Source: Corallococcus sp. AS-1-6
GTDB taxonomy: Bacteria > Myxococcota > Myxococcia > Myxococcales > Myxococcaceae
Assembly: GCF_020037015.1 (NCBI RefSeq)
Contig: NZ_JAIQDE010000021.1
Location: 1 to 64,000, forward strand
Reading direction: 5' to 3'
Length of the DNA: 64,000 bases
Shown: positions 10,992 to 18,797 of the stretch, piece by piece
How the letters are laid out: each line of letters opens with the position of its first letter
Numbering within the stretch: the stretch's first letter is position 1
Notes under the pieces: generated by a model
Database searches by the model: none
What the model saw: only the letters and a program-made list of their open reading frames with translations
Told to the model about the DNA's origin: nothing
Position numbers and translations under genes: made by a program

Positions 10992-11543
10992 ATGGCTGAC
11001 AAAGAGATGCAGACGTTCGCGGCGCTGGTCATCCAGTTCCGCTCAGGGCTCTTGAAGCACGCCCAGCGCATCCTGGGGAACGCGGCGGACGCGGAGGACC
11101 TGGTGCAGCACGCGCTGGACGAGGCGTGGAAGGAGCGGCTGCACCTCCAGGGGCCGGAGGCCTTCCGGGCGTGGACGGGGCGGGTCATCAACACGCGGGC
11201 CATCAGCCTCTTGCGCCACCACCGCGCGGAGCAGCGCAAGGCGGTGAACGCGGGCTGGGTGACGGTGCTGGCGGACGACCCCGAGGAGGTGGAGGCCGGC
11301 GAGCTCTGGACGTTCATCCAGGAGAAGGACCTGCGCGAAGCGGTGGCGCGCCTCCCGCCGCAGCAGCGGGAGGTCTTCCACCTGCGAGCGCAGGGGCGCT
11401 CCTACGTGAGCATCGGCGCCCAGGTGGGCCGCTCCACGGGCACGGTGGGCTGGTGGCTGCACCAGGTGCGCGAACAACTGCGCGAGCGGCTCCAGCCCAT
11501 CGCGGAGGAGCGCCGGCTCTCCTCCGTGGGGACGTGGCACTGA
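10992..11543 (+). CDS. ECF-type RNA polymerase sigma factor
   Basis: 183 residues. Region 2 is visible at about residues 14-45 (LLKHAQRILGNAADAEDLVQ), region 4 at about 117-165 (RLPPQQREVFHLRAQGRSYV, then a helix-turn-helix ending in GTVGWWLHQVREQLRE). No anti-sigma gene lies next to it. ATG 10992 is favoured because MADKEMQTF leads straight into region 2; an in-frame ATG at 10935 exists. Its regulon cannot be read from the window; the palindromes upstream are candidates for control sites. Confidence 0.85.
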   Translation: MADKEMQTFAALVIQFRSGLLKHAQRILGNAADAEDLVQHALDEAWKERLHLQGPEAFRAWTGRVINTRAISLLRHHRAEQRKAVNAGWVTVLADDPEEVEAGELWTFIQEKDLREAVARLPPQQREVFHLRAQGRSYVSIGAQVGRSTGTVGWWLHQVREQLRERLQPIAEERRLSSVGTWH

Positions 11544-11651
11544 GTCCCTCGAAAGGGGGATGACGGGTCCCTCTTCAGGGGCATGGTTCGCGAGCCAGAC
11601 CCTGGGTTGAGTCGGTGTTCCTCACTTCGAGGATCACCGGTAGGGCTCCCC

Positions 11652-13205
11652 ATGAATCTGACGGTCTACCTGCTTCGCGACGTCGTCTCTGAACTCGGCC
11701 AGCTTCAGCGCAAAGAGGGGTATCGTGAACTGAAGCCCAACGAGGCGCTCCCGTTCCCCTGTGTCGCGTGGGTCCAGGCCAGCAGGTCGACTCCGCCCAA
11801 ATGGATGCCCTGGCTGGGGACGGCCTTCGACCTGGAAGACCTCCGGTTGAAGAACCAGTCCAACGCTTTTGTGATGTTCCTCCAGGTGGACGGGCGCGTC
11901 TTCGCGCTCACGTTCGGATTCGGGCTGGGGGCCATCGATCGGAAGCTCATTGAGCCGGACTTCGGGCTCAAAGTGGTCCTCAACGAAGTGGACCCCGACG
12001 CGCTGGACATGGTGGACACCCGCCGGGTGGACCGGGTGAGCCGTCAGCGCCGGACGCACCTCAACGCGGGGCGGAACGTGGGCGAGTTCGACATCAGCAC
12101 GGAGCTGGATTGGCTCCAGAAGGTCAGCGGCCGCCCGCTTTCCACCGCGCTGACGAAGAAGATGGTAGGGGCGGACTCCCTCAAGCTGTCCATGAAGTGC
12201 ACGGTCGAGGAACTGGGGGCGCACTGCCAGACGTTCCTCACGCAGTACCGGAAGACGCAGTACAAGAAGCACTTCGGCTTCATCGACTACCTTCGGCCGC
12301 TCAAGGCGCGGAACCCGCTCATCCCCGTACTGGAAGAGCACCTGGTGGGGCTCTTGAAGGACCGCTCGCACGAGGAACTCGCCGTGGCGTTCCCGGAGAT
12401 GCCGGACGAGCGCATCACCCGGTGGCGGCTGTCGCAGGGGCATCAGTCCCAGGAGTTCGAGGACCTGGACATCGAAGGGGTCTACGACTTCCTGGAGGCT
12501 CATCCCGAAATCCAGCGGGATCCCCAGAAGATCCGTGTGCGGGGCTTGAACGACGATGGGGAGGTCCTGACGTCGAACGACAACCTCCACCGGTACCTGG
12601 TGGCCCAGGTGGAGCACGCCCACGCGACCTATGTGCTGTCCCTGGGACAATGGTTCCGCGTCGACACGGACTACATCTCGAAGGTGCGTGAGCGCGTGCG
12701 ACAAATCGCTGACGTCACGGCGAAGTTGCAGCTCCCGAAGTGGAGCCAGACCTTCAAGAAGGAGGGGGCGTACAACAAGCACGTGGGCAAGACGAAGAAC
12801 TGGCTGGTGCTGGACGCGAAGCCCTTCTACCCGGATGGCCACACAGGGAAGATGGAGGTCTGCGACCTGCTGAGCCCCAACAGGGACTTCATCCATGTGA
12901 AGAGCATGAAGGACTCCGCCACGCTGAGCCACCTGTTCGGCCAGGGCAGCGTGTCCGCGCGCCTGTTCCGCTCAGTGCCCGCGCATGCGGACAAGGTCCG
13001 GAAGTTCTTCCATGACCACTACGGGAGCGCGAAGGACTTCGACGGGATGAAGGGCTCGCCGCGCGTTGTCTATGCCATCGCGACCCGGAAGCAGGGGGCG
13101 CTTGCGGACACACTCTTCTTCTTCAGCGTCGTCAATCTGCTGGAGCACGTGAAGACCGTTCGTCTCGCGGGCTTCGACGTCGCGCTATGCCGGATTGAAC
13201 GGTAG
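11652..13205 (+). CDS. TIGR04141 / DUF6119-family sporadically distributed protein
   Basis: 517 residues, no signal peptide or membrane span. The N-terminus (MNLTVYLLRDVV) and blocks such as VFALTFGFGLGAIDRKLIEP, KTKNWLVLDAKPFYP and LLSPNRDFIHVKSMKDSATL match my memory of TIGR04141, a patchily distributed family often found near restriction and other defence genes. GC content looks lower than in the flanking eps genes, suggesting transfer. No obvious partner gene: the neighbours are an ECF sigma factor and, beyond a terminator, an MscS channel. Activity unknown. Confidence 0.78.
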   Translation: MNLTVYLLRDVVSELGQLQRKEGYRELKPNEALPFPCVAWVQASRSTPPKWMPWLGTAFDLEDLRLKNQSNAFVMFLQVDGRVFALTFGFGLGAIDRKLIEPDFGLKVVLNEVDPDALDMVDTRRVDRVSRQRRTHLNAGRNVGEFDISTELDWLQKVSGRPLSTALTKKMVGADSLKLSMKCTVEELGAHCQTFLTQYRKTQYKKHFGFIDYLRPLKARNPLIPVLEEHLVGLLKDRSHEELAVAFPEMPDERITRWRLSQGHQSQEFEDLDIEGVYDFLEAHPEIQRDPQKIRVRGLNDDGEVLTSNDNLHRYLVAQVEHAHATYVLSLGQWFRVDTDYISKVRERVRQIADVTAKLQLPKWSQTFKKEGAYNKHVGKTKNWLVLDAKPFYPDGHTGKMEVCDLLSPNRDFIHVKSMKDSATLSHLFGQGSVSARLFRSVPAHADKVRKFFHDHYGSAKDFDGMKGSPRVVYAIATRKQGALADTLFFFSVVNLLEHVKTVRLAGFDVALCRIER

Positions 13206-13209
13206 GGAC

Positions 13210-13236
13210 ACACGCTCCTGGGCCGCGGGAGCGTGC
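13210..13236. terminator. Bidirectional hairpin between convergent genes
   Basis: A perfect 8-bp stem CACGCTCC/GGAGCGTG with a 9-nt GC-rich loop, extendable by mismatched flanks, centred between the convergent stops at 13205 and 13256. Confidence 0.5.
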
Positions 13237-13255
13237 GCCTGCTCCAAACTTCAAT

Positions 13256-14902
13256 TCAGCGCTGCGGTTCCACCCGGGCCTTGTTGCCCGCATGCGCGGC
13301 CAGCAGCGCCGGTCCCGCGGCCTTCTCCTCCGGGAAGGGCAGGGGCGTGGCCTCCGCGCGCAGCAGCGGCAGTCCGTGCGGCTGGGCCTGGAGGTAGGCC
13401 ACCAGCTTCTCTCGCACCAGGCAGCGCAGGTCGAAGGCCTTGCCGGAGTCCGCCGCGCTCACCAGGGCGCGCAGCTTCATGGTGCGCTCGCTCAGGTCCG
13501 TCACCTGGAGCCCCTGCACCTTTCCGTCCCACAGCCCCTTGGACTCCTGCTCCAGGATGCGCTTGAGCTCCGCGCGCACCGCCGGCACGTCCGTGCGGAA
13601 GTCCACGTACAGCTCCGCCGTGCCCAATATCTCCGGCGACACCTTGCTCCAGTTCTGGAACGGCTTCTCCAGGAACTGCGTGATGGGGATGACCAGCCGG
13701 CGCAGGTCCCACACCTTCACCACGACGTAGGTGAGGGTGATCTCCTCGATCCACCCCCACTCGTTCTCGATGATGACCGTGTCGCCAATGCGCATGGGCT
13801 GCGTGATGGACAACTGGATGCCCGCGAACAGCGTGGACAGCGACTTCTGCGCGGCCAGGCCAATGGCCAGACCCGCGATGCCCGCGGACGCCAGCAGCGA
13901 CACGCCCACGTTGCGCACCGCCTCGAACTGGAGGAGCAACAGCGACGCGGCCACCAGCACCACCGCCACCTCCACCACGCGCCGCAGGATGGCCAACTGC
14001 GTGCGCAGCCCGCGCACCCGCGCCACGTCCGTGCCCTCCGGCGACTTCGCGACCTTGTCCTCCAGGAAGCGCGCGGCCCGGGTGAGGAAGCGCAGCACGA
14101 ACAGCGCCACCGCCACGATGATCACCGAGCGCGCCGCCAGGTCCACCGTCTCCTGCGCGGGCGGAGGCAGCTTGAGGAAGCGCGCCCCCGCCGCCGCCAG
14201 CATGCCCGCCAGCACGAAGCGGATGCTCCCCTTGCCCGCGGCCAGCAGCTCGTCATCCCAGCCGGACTTCGTCAGCCCCGCGGCCCGGGCACCCACCCGC
14301 AGCGCCACCGCCTCCACCAGCCGCCCCATCGCCCACGCCCCCACGAGCACGACCCCCAACCCCAGCCACTGCCACGTCTCCAGCACCCACAGCGGGCGCG
14401 TGAAGAACACCGGCGGCAGCATCTCCAGCAGCGGCGACCCGTGCTCCTGGAACAGCGTGTCGATGGCGCCCACCGTGTCCGCGCTGAAGACCCACACCGG
14501 GCCCCCTTCCGCGTCCACCCGCTCCAGCACGATGTCCTGGGGGCCTCGCGACGTGGCCACCTGGCCCAGCACCTCGCGGCGCGCGCGCTCCCCGGGGCCC
14601 GCCGGCTCCCTGCCGATGCGCGCGAAGTCCAGCCACAGCGTCCGGTCCATCACCACCACCAGCCGCCGCGCCAGCTTCAGCCCCTCCTCCGCCTGCGTCT
14701 CCGGAGGCAGCCGCGACAGGTCCAGGTAGTGCGGCGCCCGCAACCCGTCCCGGGCATGCGCCGCGTCCAGGAACCCCGCCGCCGTCGCCGTGGGCGTGCT
14801 CCGGTCCACCTCCGGCGGAGGCGGAGGCAGCCCCGCGTTCAACGCGAAGGCCCCCACCGGCCCCAACAGCAGCAACACCCACAGCGGCACGAAACGGCGC
14901 AC
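13256..14902 (-). CDS. MscS-family mechanosensitive channel
   Basis: 548 residues. Signal peptide or first membrane segment at the start, a soluble periplasmic domain of about 165 residues, then four or five membrane segments (WLGLGVVLVGAWAMG, SIRFVLAGMLAAAGA, SVIIVAVALFVLRF, VVEVAVVLVAASLLLL). The pore helix SLLASAGIAGLAIGLAAQKS and the following beta domain (MRIGDTVIIENEWGWIEEIT) identify MscS. It should release solutes under hypo-osmotic stress. The start is GTG 14902, with GGAGAG six bases upstream; an ATG at 14941 gives a poorer N-terminus. Confidence 0.9.
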   Translation of the reverse strand: MRRFVPLWVLLLLGPVGAFALNAGLPPPPPEVDRSTPTATAAGFLDAAHARDGLRAPHYLDLSRLPPETQAEEGLKLARRLVVVMDRTLWLDFARIGREPAGPGERARREVLGQVATSRGPQDIVLERVDAEGGPVWVFSADTVGAIDTLFQEHGSPLLEMLPPVFFTRPLWVLETWQWLGLGVVLVGAWAMGRLVEAVALRVGARAAGLTKSGWDDELLAAGKGSIRFVLAGMLAAAGARFLKLPPPAQETVDLAARSVIIVAVALFVLRFLTRAARFLEDKVAKSPEGTDVARVRGLRTQLAILRRVVEVAVVLVAASLLLLQFEAVRNVGVSLLASAGIAGLAIGLAAQKSLSTLFAGIQLSITQPMRIGDTVIIENEWGWIEEITLTYVVVKVWDLRRLVIPITQFLEKPFQNWSKVSPEILGTAELYVDFRTDVPAVRAELKRILEQESKGLWDGKVQGLQVTDLSERTMKLRALVSAADSGKAFDLRCLVREKLVAYLQAQPHGLPLLRAEATPLPFPEEKAAGPALLAAHAGNKARVEPQR

Positions 14903-15064
14903 GGCACTCTCCTGATTTGTATGTAATTTGAGAACAAACAATCACCCCGGGCGGGGGCTGTCCAGCGGGGATGACGCGGACGGCCAAGGCCCGGACGCGG
15001 TGCGGACGGGCGGGAGGGCGACGGCCCTGTCGCGTCATGGCGTCATGGTAGGTTTCGCACCTCC

Positions 15065-16225
15065 ATGTCTGCTCCTGCTTCGTCGCTCAAGGCCGTCATC
15101 GCCGCGCTGTCCGGCAATGTGTTGGTCACGCTCATCAAGTTCATCGCCTTCTTCCTGTCGGGGTCGGGGGCGATGTTGTCGGAGGCGATCCACTCGGCGG
15201 CGGATACGGGCAACCAGGTGTTGTTGTTCCTGGGGTTGAAGCGGGCGGCGCGCGTGGAGGACGACTCGCACCCGTACGGCTACGGAGGCGAGCGCTTCAT
15301 CTTCGGCATCCTGTCCGCGTCCGGCATCTTCTTCGTGGGCTGCGGCGTGACGGTCTACCACGGCATCCAGTCGCTGCTGCACCCGCACGTGGCGGAGACG
15401 GGGCCGGTGACGTTCGCGGTGCTGGGGTTGTCGTTCCTCATCGAGGGCGGCGTGTTGTTGTTCGCGGTGCGGGGGCTGCTGACGCAGGCGGCGGGCGAGC
15501 CCTTCTTCCGCTTCGTGCGGACGAAGGCCGACCCGGCGTCGGTGGCCATCCTGTTGGAGGACGGCGCGGCGGTGCTGGGCCTGGTGCTGGCGACGGCGGG
15601 CATCGGGCTGGCGCACGTGACGGGCAACCCGGTGTGGGACGCGCTGGCGTCGCTCACGGTGGGGGTGTTGCTGGGGCTCATCGCGCTGTACCTGATGGTG
15701 GAGAACCGGGAGCTGTTGCTGGGCCGGTCGGTGCCCTCGGACGTGGAGCAGCGCTTCGAGGACCTGCTGCGCGCGCGCGCAAGCCTGGCGGACCTGCACG
15801 ACGTGAAGACGCGGCAGCTCACGCCGGAGTCCTACCAGTTCAAGGCGGAGCTGCGCTTCAGCGAGAGCTTCGTGGCGGCCCGGCTGGCGGAGGCCCTGCC
15901 CGCGCAGGGGCTGCCCCCGGTGGGAGCGGAGCGGGAGCGCGCGTTGACGGACGCGGCCCGGCACCTCATCCGCACGCTGAGCGAGGAGATCGACGCCATC
16001 GAAGCGGAGGTCCGCCGCGCCATCCCGCAGGCGAAGCACATCGACCTGGAGCTGGAGCACCTGACCGCCGCCGCCGCCGAGGCCGCGGAGCTCCGCGCCC
16101 GGGTGAGCCTGGGAGGACCGCTGGGGTCAGCTAAGCCATTGGACCCTGAACGTCCAATTCGACAGGGCAAGTCTGGCTTGCTTCCTCAAGAGGACACGGG
16201 CTTCATCACTCCCGTGGAGGAATAG
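15065..16225 (+). CDS. Cation diffusion facilitator (CDF) family transporter
   Basis: 386 residues with six membrane segments in the first 220. Family marks: HSAADTGNQVLLFLGL in TM2 (HxxxD), HPYGYGGERF after it, LLEDGAAVLGL in TM5 and VWDALASLTVGVLLG in TM6. The C-terminal cytoplasmic domain has a helical extension (LIRTLSEEIDAIEAEVRRAI). It would export divalent metals such as Zn, Mn or Fe in exchange for protons; the metal cannot be read. The TM5 motif departs from the classical HxxxD, which may affect selectivity. The next gene starts immediately after its stop. Confidence 0.88.
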   Translation: MSAPASSLKAVIAALSGNVLVTLIKFIAFFLSGSGAMLSEAIHSAADTGNQVLLFLGLKRAARVEDDSHPYGYGGERFIFGILSASGIFFVGCGVTVYHGIQSLLHPHVAETGPVTFAVLGLSFLIEGGVLLFAVRGLLTQAAGEPFFRFVRTKADPASVAILLEDGAAVLGLVLATAGIGLAHVTGNPVWDALASLTVGVLLGLIALYLMVENRELLLGRSVPSDVEQRFEDLLRARASLADLHDVKTRQLTPESYQFKAELRFSESFVAARLAEALPAQGLPPVGAERERALTDAARHLIRTLSEEIDAIEAEVRRAIPQAKHIDLELEHLTAAAAEAAELRARVSLGGPLGSAKPLDPERPIRQGKSGLLPQEDTGFITPVEE

Positions 16226-16709: not shown

Positions 16710-17414
16710 TCACCGGAGGATCGCGGCATCTTCAGGCCGGATACGCCCCTGGCGACGCATCTCTCGGACCAGGAATGGGGCTCGCCTTTCAAGGAACCAC
16801 AGCGGGAGCGGCTGAGAAGGTACTTGGGGCCTCCAGTAGGCCTCGAACCAGGTGCGATGGGTGTTGCTGACATCCCTTGAGGCGAGCCCCAAGCGGGTGA
16901 TGGTGGCATCCACCTGTTGCTTCAACGGCTCCTCAAGGCCTTCCGCCGCTTCGACCTGGAAGGTGGCCAGATTGAGCGTGAACCAGCCGTCCTGGATGAA
17001 GAAGGGGTCGAGTACATCCGGGAACTGGTTCTTGGCCGCATTCATCAGCGAGCACGCCAGCCGGTAGTTGTCCCACTCGTAGGCCTGCGGCGCCCCCGTG
17101 CGTGAAAGGGCGACGAAGTGGTCGACCGTGGGCCCGCAGAGGGGCTCCATGTAGAAGCACGAATAGGCGCAGATGCCTCGATAGGCATCGTGCATGGCAT
17201 CGAGCGCCCGCGTCCAATAGGGGTAGTCGCGCAGATCGTCGTGCGTCAGGTCCTCGACCCGGGATGCCCGTTGTTGAATGCGTGGCCCTGGGCGCGTGAC
17301 CGTTGGAGATTGGCCAGTAAGTTCGGCCAGTGCGCTAAGCCCCGGCTGGCGCACCCGGTTGTCGAAGTCGAAGCCGGGCGGTCGCGGTTCGGGTTGTTTC
17401 TCGACCCGGATCAT
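16710..17414 (-). CDS. HNH-endonuclease-like protein, partner of the adjacent ATPase (PtuB-like)
   Basis: 234 residues. The central region has an HNH/zinc-finger layout: C82-x3-C86 and C93, VDHF with His99, then YEWDNYRLACSLMNAAKNQF (Asn116, Asn125, Lys128). The pattern cysteines - (V/I)(D/E)HF - Y.W.NYRLAC...N..K is that of HNH proteins paired with ATPases, such as Septu PtuB and TIGR02646 proteins. The start ATG 17414 overlaps the ATPase stop (ATGA). I infer a nuclease effector gated by the ATPase; phage defence is likely but unproven. Confidence 0.75.
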   Translation of the reverse strand: MIRVEKQPEPRPPGFDFDNRVRQPGLSALAELTGQSPTVTRPGPRIQQRASRVEDLTHDDLRDYPYWTRALDAMHDAYRGICAYSCFYMEPLCGPTVDHFVALSRTGAPQAYEWDNYRLACSLMNAAKNQFPDVLDPFFIQDGWFTLNLATFQVEAAEGLEEPLKQQVDATITRLGLASRDVSNTHRTWFEAYWRPQVPSQPLPLWFLERRAPFLVREMRRQGRIRPEDAAILR

Positions 17415-18673
17415 TTCTGGAGTCCCGCCTCCTGCGCCCAGAAGCCCCAGTGCAGCCAGAACGGATCCACGTCCGAAAGACTGGCCCGGAGCTTCTGACG
17501 GACTTCGTTGAACTCCTCGTGTGTGACGCCCTTGCGGCTCATGAGGGCCCTGGCCTGCTGGAGGGCCTCCTCCGCCTCCAAAGAGCGGGGCTCCGTCAGG
17601 TCGAACACGTCCGAGGTGAGCCACGAGTTCGCGTCACCCCGGCGCCGCCAGGGCTCCTTCTTCAGGACCACCGACTGGTCCTCCAGATCCAGGTTCCAGA
17701 GAGCATCCTTCGCGGGGTCGAACAGCGGTTCCAACGAGGCGAGCAGCAGCGGTGAGTGAGTCACCGAGAGCACCTGGACCGCGACCTTTTCGCGGGTCAG
17801 CGCGCCCATGACGCCCAGGATCGAGCGAAGGATGGTCCGCTGCCAGCGGGGATGTAGGTGGGATTCGAGCTCATCGATGAGGAAGATGATCTGCCGCGTC
17901 ACGCCCTGGTGGAGCAGACGGTTCGCCTGGACATGCTCCTGCCACGACCAGACCAGGAGATATGCCAGGGCGATGATGCGTTTGACTCCCGCAGAGGCAT
18001 GAACCACTGGAACCTCCTGTCCATAGGAGGTCCGAAGCGTCGGCATATCGCGAACGTCTTCCAGGCTGATCCGGGTCAGCTCTCCGGGAGCCAACCGTTC
18101 TCGCTCGGAGGGCGACAGCACCTCCAGGGCCCGTAGCAGATGATGGAAGGGCACGTCGTTCCGCCCCTGCCAGGTGGCCCAGTCACGAACCAGGCCATTG
18201 CAGAGCACCTTCCCATCCGGCTCCAGTCCATCCCAGACCTGCTGGGGCGCGAAATGATACGCGCTCTGTGGAGGTGGCGTGCCGGGCCAGGTTGAGTGCG
18301 GCCGCTGGCTGTTCCTCAGCGGGTCCCAGACCGAGAAGGAACCGTCGATGCGGGCATAGATGACAAGGCTGGAGTTCTTCGAGGCTTTCTGGGGAGGGCT
18401 CCAGAACTGGCTGCTGAAGTCGTATGCGCTGGTGGAGTCGAAGGCGCCTTGATCATTCTTGAGGCGGAAAGAGATGGTCGGAGTGAGGTGCTCCCCGCGG
18501 TGAGGCGACGCGGGATAGCCCGCCCAGGTCTGGGTCAAGGCCCACCAGGCCACGTCCAGGATGAAGGTCTTCCCCAGCCCGTTGTCACCCGTAAGGAGGT
18601 TCAGTCGTGGGGCCAGCTCGAATTCGAGCTGGGAGGCCGGTCCGACATGATGGAGTTCCAGCCGTTTGAGCAT
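17411..18673 (-). CDS. AAA/SMC-like ATPase of a two-gene Septu-like system (PtuA-like)
   Basis: 420 residues. Walker A GDNGLGKT at 29-36 in an N-terminal strand typical of RecF/OLD-like ATPases; ABC-signature-like HASAGVKRIIALAYLL at about 225-240; Walker B IIFLIDELE at 262-270 with HLHPRW following; switch histidine in VTHSP (His306). No C-terminal TOPRIM domain, unlike OLD. GGAGAAG lies just before the ATG at 18673; an upstream ATG at 18769 is rejected. It lies 125 bp downstream of wzy on the same strand and is coupled to the HNH gene. Similar pairs act as anti-phage systems. Confidence 0.82.
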   Translation of the reverse strand: MLKRLELHHVGPASQLEFELAPRLNLLTGDNGLGKTFILDVAWWALTQTWAGYPASPHRGEHLTPTISFRLKNDQGAFDSTSAYDFSSQFWSPPQKASKNSSLVIYARIDGSFSVWDPLRNSQRPHSTWPGTPPPQSAYHFAPQQVWDGLEPDGKVLCNGLVRDWATWQGRNDVPFHHLLRALEVLSPSERERLAPGELTRISLEDVRDMPTLRTSYGQEVPVVHASAGVKRIIALAYLLVWSWQEHVQANRLLHQGVTRQIIFLIDELESHLHPRWQRTILRSILGVMGALTREKVAVQVLSVTHSPLLLASLEPLFDPAKDALWNLDLEDQSVVLKKEPWRRRGDANSWLTSDVFDLTEPRSLEAEEALQQARALMSRKGVTHEEFNEVRQKLRASLSDVDPFWLHWGFWAQEAGLQK

Positions 18674-18797
18674 GTCTTCTCCGGGTACGGGGCCCCGTCC
18701 TGGGCGCGGGTATAGGTCAGGTCGAAAGACGTGACAAACGTCGGTCTCGTCCCTGGTCGTCCTTATCACTCCAGGACGCGGGCCCGCCGAAAGCCGT

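Follow-up and report, generated by a model that had tools for sequence, protein, structure and literature searches.

The window analysed here is a 64,000-nucleotide stretch of the Corallococcus sp. AS-1-6 genome, and the gene under study encodes a 517-amino-acid protein that matches two family profiles from end to end (Table 1). It covers positions 1–524 of 524 in DUF6119 (PF19614; Pfam, E = 5.1e-143) and 1–516 of 516 in TIGR04141 (NCBIfam, E = 3.2e-126), and its scores of 421.8 bits against a cut-off of 35 and 477.9 bits against 27 place the full-length protein in the TIGR04141/DUF6119 family. A longer in-frame reading frame opens at 11583; in the divergent Corallococcus genome G002, the first in-frame start past the preceding stop is the position matching 11652, which supports the start given here. 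A whole-genome search found a single copy in the 9.5-Mb genome. Upstream lies an ECF-type sigma factor gene, recognised by Sigma70_r2 (2.3e-10), Sigma70_r4_2 (2.3e-9) and TIGR02937 (74.6 bits; cut-off 42.9) and taken as the part that aligns from the first residue in relatives, beginning at the ATG at 10992. These matches bear out an earlier note, made from the letters alone, that had placed a TIGR04141 protein beside an ECF sigma factor.

Table 1. Features of the locus, in window coordinates
Feature	Position	Strand	Basis
ECF-type sigma factor gene, conserved neighbour outside the insertion	10992..11543	+	Pfam/NCBIfam, site comparison
Spacer, 108 bp, sigma stop to TIGR04141 start	11544..11651	+	Alignment with homologous spacers in G010, G004 and divergent G002; absent at empty sites
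TIGR04141/DUF6119 gene, 517 aa	11652..13205	+	Family matches, AlphaFold models, fold comparison
Codons 371–431, putative active site (E371, E402, D405, H415-x-K417, S426-H427-L428-F429, Q431)	12762..12944	+	Conservation in 22 aligned members
Spacer, 50 bp, with stem-loop, between convergent TIGR04141 and MscS genes	13206..13255	.	Folding, terminator scan
MscS-type channel gene, conserved neighbour; stop 1–10 bp from sigma stop at empty sites	13256..14941	-	Pfam, site comparison
ptuA-ptuB (Septu-like) pair, separate insertion between 149-aa gene and wzy	16710..18769	-	PADLOC, site comparison
ptuB	16710-17414	-	PADLOC PtuB1 (PDLC00348), 5.1e-60
ptuA	17411-18769	-	PADLOC PtuA1 (PDLC00307), 2.6e-171

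Neither Pfam nor NCBIfam assigns the family a function; the window protein carries the family's invariant residues along its full length, and this copy differs in standing without a restriction-modification (RM) partner. A literature search for TIGR04141, also as 'sporadically distributed protein', returned no paper naming the family, and the sole match for DUF6119 concerns, by its listing, wheat MADS-box genes. No PADLOC model fits any of 22 family members, which gave one weak AbiEi match (E = 0.0091) and otherwise nothing at E ≤ 0.1. In PHROGs, one family matches, phrog_18579, and it has no assigned function.

Downstream, the gene order runs from an MscS-type channel in the opposite direction through a cation exporter, a 149-amino-acid gene and a ptuA/ptuB-like pair to a Wzy-type polymerase. 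The stem-loop 3' of the TIGR04141 gene recurs in all three occupied sites that keep MscS (folding z −2.7, −6.7 and −4.6); lacking a T-run, it is not a classical intrinsic terminator by our scan. Scans of 10.6–13.4 kb for sigma-70 promoters and T-run terminators found none, and an Rfam scan of 8–21 kb gave no match. Pfam likewise found no anti-sigma or DNA-modification family among nine neighbouring ORFs, and none of the genome's five N6_Mtase matches is on the window's contig, so the observation that the sigma factor stands without an anti-sigma factor and the TIGR04141 gene without a modification partner holds. A type I RM accessory gene would share an operon with hsdM, hsdS and hsdR; the direct neighbours here are the sigma factor and MscS genes.

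The locus was compared across 16 genomes of the genus, the window genome (G000) included; 13 were scored, and G005, G009 and G015 were left out. The TIGR04141 gene occupies the sigma/MscS site in four of the 16, the site is empty in nine, and three are the unscored genomes. In the window genome, G010 and G004 it lies between sigma and MscS, with 1712–1713 bp from stop to stop; in G002 it follows the sigma gene, and MscS and the exporter were not found. At the nine empty sites (G006, G008, G003, G013, G011, G001, G007, G012 and G014), the sigma and MscS genes end 1–10 bp apart. The TIGR04141 gene is thus accessory in the genus. The sigma factor, by comparison, occurs in each of the 12 other scored genomes at 88–97% identity, with or without TIGR04141, and MscS in 11 of the 12. 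Ten other genomes have a contig that extends to Wzy; all ten have Wzy itself, nine the 149-amino-acid gene and seven the cation exporter, so the exporter is itself variable in the locus. Because the sigma factor is present at empty sites, we reject it as an obligate regulator or partner of the TIGR04141 gene.

Two separate insertions, the TIGR04141 gene (1.7 kb) and ptuAB (~2.1 kb), therefore sit at this locus, each at a convergent junction of a conserved gene order. The earlier note had read 10.6–18.8 kb as an acquired block and 10.9–18.7 kb as a single small defence island. With the sigma factor in 13 of 13 scored genomes and MscS, the 149-amino-acid gene and Wzy nearly constant, the two insertions are separated and flanked by genes that most or all relatives have, and synteny across the scored genus genomes leads us to reject the one-island reading. 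The pattern that the note had set as its own refutation, the whole gene set kept in order in every eps locus, is complete for the sigma factor and nearly so for MscS, the 149-amino-acid gene and Wzy; it does not extend to TIGR04141 or ptuAB.

The ATPase/HNH pair that the note had placed 4 kb away proved to be a ptuA/ptuB-like pair, a catalogued defence combination, 3.5 kb from the TIGR04141 gene. A PtuA ATPase gene followed by a gene for the HNH-type PtuB is the Septu arrangement, and both components match their PADLOC models, with the two genes overlapping by ATGA. The ptuB start is most likely the ATG at 17414, which overlaps the ptuA stop, and not the upstream GTG at 17624 of the mechanical ORF. 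Pfam detects no domain in the PtuB ORF, and the NCBIfam PtuA equivalog of the retron Ec78 type scores 61.7 bits, far under its cut-off of 500. No other genome with both genes of the 149-aa/Wzy junction on one contig carries ptuAB there (0 of 9); the nearest other PtuA proteins, 66–69% identical, come from G022, which belongs to another genus, and from G015 and G005, the G005 copy on a different contig from Wzy. The Septu-like pair is a separate insertion, and no result of this analysis ties it functionally to TIGR04141.

Other parts of the locus also vary. The window's cation exporter (15065–16225, + strand) has ~40 extra C-terminal residues ending TGFITPVEE. This end resembles that of a separate gene with a JAMM-like HSHPWFP...D stretch. 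In G010 that gene stands between the exporter and the 149-amino-acid gene and contains an in-frame stop; in G002 it precedes the 149-amino-acid gene. A ~0.7-kb deletion probably fused the two genes in the window. At the DUF6445/sigma junction, G002 (L058:2181-3764) and G011 (L056) carry ~1–1.6 kb more DNA than the window, in G002 with a 527-amino-acid ORF that has no Pfam match; the junction is perhaps another cargo site. Away from the locus, G005 has a divergent TIGR04141 gene (L062; 30% identity) with an internal stop, and G022 has a copy in pieces (L066). These broken copies suggest decay.

The spacer upstream of the TIGR04141 gene, 97–109 bp long, aligns among the window genome, G010, G004 and the divergent G002. 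Because homology extends to G002, the sequences point to one old insertion at the site, and on the same ground a recent acquisition in the window strain alone is rejected. All six pairs of the four copies have dN/dS values of 0.11–0.22; the gene is therefore under purifying selection. Between the window genome and G002, its dS is 0.86, against 0.28–0.34 for the sigma, DUF6445 and Wzy genes. This 2.5- to 3-fold excess runs counter to a simple vertical story and possibly reflects exchange of alleles or a codon regime that differs. On an rpoB-region tree of 15 genomes, of which 12 were scored, the pattern of occupied and empty sites requires four changes, at least three on well-supported branches, which is no fewer than with shuffled labels (mean 3.5), so the gene has been lost or exchanged repeatedly. 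GC content is 63.1% in TIGR04141 and 63.7% in ptuBA, compared with 67–73% in the other genes.

AlphaFold models the 517-amino-acid protein with a pLDDT of 85.1 and a pTM of 0.77, as a predicted RdgC/RexA-like N-terminal domain (1–204), a small beta domain (235–312) and a PD-(D/E)XK-like nuclease domain (362–517). In VIA-align comparisons, where every fold Z-score is below 8, the range in which the tool warns of chance, residues 1–204 best match RdgC (Z 6.5, rmsd 4.2, 164 aligned), followed by Iml3 (Z 5.0). The match to RexA itself is poor (Z 3.4, rmsd 12.9; Z 3.4–3.6 and rmsd >12 across comparisons), and RnlA matches residues 1–102 weakly (Z 2.8). Folding the N-terminal 312 residues alone (pLDDT 84.3) again gave RdgC (Z 6.6, rmsd 4.1, 162 aligned); nine of the first ten rows are RdgC, Iml3, CCAN chain L (which we take to be CENP-L) or RexA, with Z at most 6.6. 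Within this model the middle part, 205–312, returned weak rows only, fibronectin-III-like ones among them (Z no higher than 4.0). In a viral structure library, a phage exonuclease ranks first (probability 0.99, TM 0.22), and three phage RdgC-type proteins appear at 0.82, 0.66 and 0.18. Membership of this fold group would mean a globular plus dimerisation/base-domain topology and a dimer or ring that binds DNA non-specifically. RdgC, RexA and Iml3–CENP-L proteins are not known to have a nuclease domain. PMC11077077 describes RexA as a phage-exclusion protein that binds DNA non-specifically and is structurally homologous to RdgC, and RexA, RdgC and IML3/CHL4 as DNA-binding proteins of common fold; our N-terminal matches fall into the same grouping.

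Residues 362–517 match FokI (Z 6.7, rmsd 3.3, 123 aligned), whose likeness is to its cleavage domain, and EndoMS (Z 6.2, rmsd 3.3, 99 aligned), then CdiA-CT toxins, EcoT38I, BglII and PspGI. Eight of the first 11 rows are, by our assignment, PD-(D/E)XK superfamily proteins, two EndoMS and two CdiA-CT entries among them. Superfamily members thus lead the list for the alpha-beta-beta-beta-alpha-beta core, with Z no higher than 6.7, and Foldseek alone gave nothing significant: its search of the PDB returned no match at E ≤ 0.001. Sequence-profile searches for solved relatives returned nothing credible and no similarity to PD-(D/E)XK nucleases. The fold case rests on two separate regions that each match one coherent group, together with the conserved residues.

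Across 22 aligned family members, 26 of 517 positions are invariant, 12 of them within 369–436, and E371, E402, D405, K417 and Q431 are identical in all 22. In the predicted secondary structure, E371 opens a helix, H415–K417 lie in a strand and Q431 is in the next helix, a helix/strand/helix placing found in PD-(D/E)XK enzymes. The likeness to that superfamily (FokI, EndoMS, EcoT38I, BglII, XPF) thus comprises the predicted fold, a conserved Glu at a helix start, a Glu/Asp before and a Lys within a strand, and a Gln in the following helix; acidic residues followed by Lys in the next strand are present in sequence as E371, E402, D405 and K417. It differs in the residue two before the Lys, which is His in 21 of the 22 members and Ala in one, never Asp or Glu, and the Z-scores are moderate. 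Because the usual Asp/Glu of (D/E)xK is absent, we use the label PD-(D/E)XK-like and stop short of placing the domain in the superfamily, membership of which would also entail metal-dependent DNA cleavage.

We lean, by a modest degree, towards reading the TIGR04141 gene as orphan single-gene defence cargo, a stand-alone DNA-binding nuclease acting against phage or plasmid DNA. The computations show its family, accessory status and insertion site, the purifying selection on it, its conserved residues and predicted folds, and the association of its relatives with RM systems, plasmids and prophages; DNA binding, cleavage, dimerisation and defence are inferred. The N-terminal RdgC/RexA/Iml3-fold domain would bind DNA, likely as a dimer by analogy with solved proteins, and the PD-(D/E)XK-like domain would cut it through E371, E402, D405 and K417, with His415 at the usual acidic position. 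The target would be phage or plasmid DNA, perhaps intermediates of replication or recombination of the kind recognised by RdgC-like folds, and the outcome could be either destruction of the invader or killing of the cell. We regard it as a good candidate for a defence nuclease of an uncharacterised family.

The relatives are scattered and keep defence-associated company, as the earlier note had said. The family is present in 5 of 16 genus genomes, 23 of 195 phylum genomes and 0 of 14 control genomes. It occurs in 32 of 72,556 plasmid records, 16 of them predicted conjugative, in 1 of 50,697 phage records and on four viral contigs, three of which carry the phage record's two integrases. Genomic context was read for 11 of the 32 plasmid rows, picked by hand, for the one phage row, for 24 genome loci among the matches listed (the G004 and G002 copies included) and for 20 myxobacterial loci besides the four at the window site. 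HsdM-like genes flank (within up to ~8 kb) 6 of the 11 hand-picked plasmid loci and 12 of the 24 genome loci among the matches listed, several of these near-copies, in Elusimicrobiota, Pseudomonadota and Actinomycetota. They flank 1 of the 20 myxobacterial loci and 0 of the 5 phage and viral loci, where some flanks are short and end with the contig. By chance, ~0.4% of flanks would match, judging by the 63 N6_Mtase matches counted across 23 myxobacterial genomes; this estimate may be low for denser phyla. On the family tree, loci with RM company group together (9 changes, compared with 15.8 after shuffling), and the 18 RM loci therefore represent far fewer than 18 independent events. With RM genes at 1 of 20 myxobacterial loci, no general RM link was found in myxobacteria. 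In other phyla, type I restriction operons often include the same protein as a module; at the myxobacterial loci compared it mostly stands outside such operons.

In alphaproteobacterial operons, the gene lies between hsdS and hsdR in overlapping or abutting frames and is followed by SprT; SprT accompanies many of the RM-embedded relatives, from which the window differs in that its contig has no N6_Mtase match. Elsewhere the family occurs beside AbiH, near an AAA–S8 peptidase pair, between two integrases of a Pseudomonas phage and, in some cases, without an obvious defence gene. The AAA ATPase and S8 peptidase pair was seen on a Paracoccus plasmid (L068:2886-6254) and a Clostridia contig (L104:778-4048). 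Five loci (L068:6520-7860, L086, L087, L089 and L091) have a 446-amino-acid gene with no Pfam match directly upstream of TIGR04141, where other operons have hsdS, and in L068, L086 and L087 it overlaps TIGR04141 by 4 bp; it is possibly a divergent specificity subunit. Up to 4 kb on each side, flanking DNA of 18 myxobacterial loci is common to one pair (G117/G116) and, at ~68–80% identity, to a group of five; the other 11 have none in common.

This company raises an unlikely alternative, that the window gene is a stranded or repurposed accessory subunit of type I restriction, one that works only with HsdS, HsdM and HsdR and has lost its partner here. The placing between hsdS and hsdR speaks for it, as do the nearest relatives found outside the genus, an Elusimicrobia bacterium copy (L085, 38%) and one from G145 (L138, 37%), both in type I RM loci. 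These two, L140 and the Corallococcus copies tentatively form one seven-row tree group (SH-aLRT 91 in a quick tree with long branches), distinct from the main cluster of 15 myxobacterial sequences. That the Corallococcus copies have no visible partner counts against a stand-alone nuclease. Set against a stranded subunit are the retention of the putative catalytic residues, the low dN/dS and the flanks of 19 of 20 myxobacterial loci and of all 5 loci from phages and viral contigs, where no hsd match was found; the protein therefore occurs without RM. In RM operons, a neighbouring HsdS may steer the protein.

We think it distinctly improbable that the protein is a host recombination or repair factor, an RdgC-type DNA clamp with a nuclease and no role in defence. 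RdgC is the best N-terminal fold match, and among the best C-terminal matches is EndoMS, a mismatch-specific endonuclease; the patchy distribution, with its plasmids, prophages and RM operons, is at odds with such a housekeeping role. More doubtful again is an RNA-cleaving or toxin-like effector that, like RnlA, would cut RNA and thereby kill an infected cell: the RnlA match and the CdiA-CT toxins hint at it, but the best C-terminal matches are DNA endonucleases, and the RnlA match may reflect just a common fold. Hardly any weight is left to a single acquired defence island with TIGR04141 under sigma-factor control, a reading that synteny has already largely refuted; the two genes are on the same strand 108 bp apart, with the spacer homologous in four occupied sites, so read-through transcription is possible, but the sigma factor is in all nine empty-site genomes, ptuAB is absent from all nine comparable junctions, and the sigma protein matched only 2 of 60 TIGR04141 loci, both Corallococcus (a distant sigma factor could be missed), which makes a general functional pair unlikely.

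The defence-nuclease reading has a parallel in the nuclease–protease pairs that PMC12799240 reports as acquired by unrelated immune systems. As there, a nuclease module recurs across immune contexts, and several TIGR04141 relatives have a nearby protease gene, SprT or S8. The nuclease of those pairs is described as MBL-type and activated by a trypsin-like protease, whereas TIGR04141 has another predicted fold and no protease among the window neighbours scanned.

Two libraries hold this family under no better name than 'sporadically distributed' or 'of unknown function', and a DNA-binding clamp joined to a nuclease with named catalytic residues is a specific, testable architecture from one gene. 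At the level of the locus, the empty-site comparison indicates that defence cargo can settle where convergent genes meet at their 3' ends within a conserved locus for surface polysaccharide, leaving those genes uninterrupted. More broadly, and tentatively enough that we would not yet bet on it, TIGR04141/DUF6119 proteins may be widespread, unrecognised immune effectors in which an RdgC/RexA-type clamp is fused to a nuclease, alone in myxobacteria and prophages and an exchangeable module in type I restriction operons elsewhere. The RdgC/RexA link, if true, would tie TIGR04141 to lambda Rex exclusion, and the lambda RexA fold would then be part of a broader phage-exclusion family in which some proteins carry their own DNA-cutting domain.
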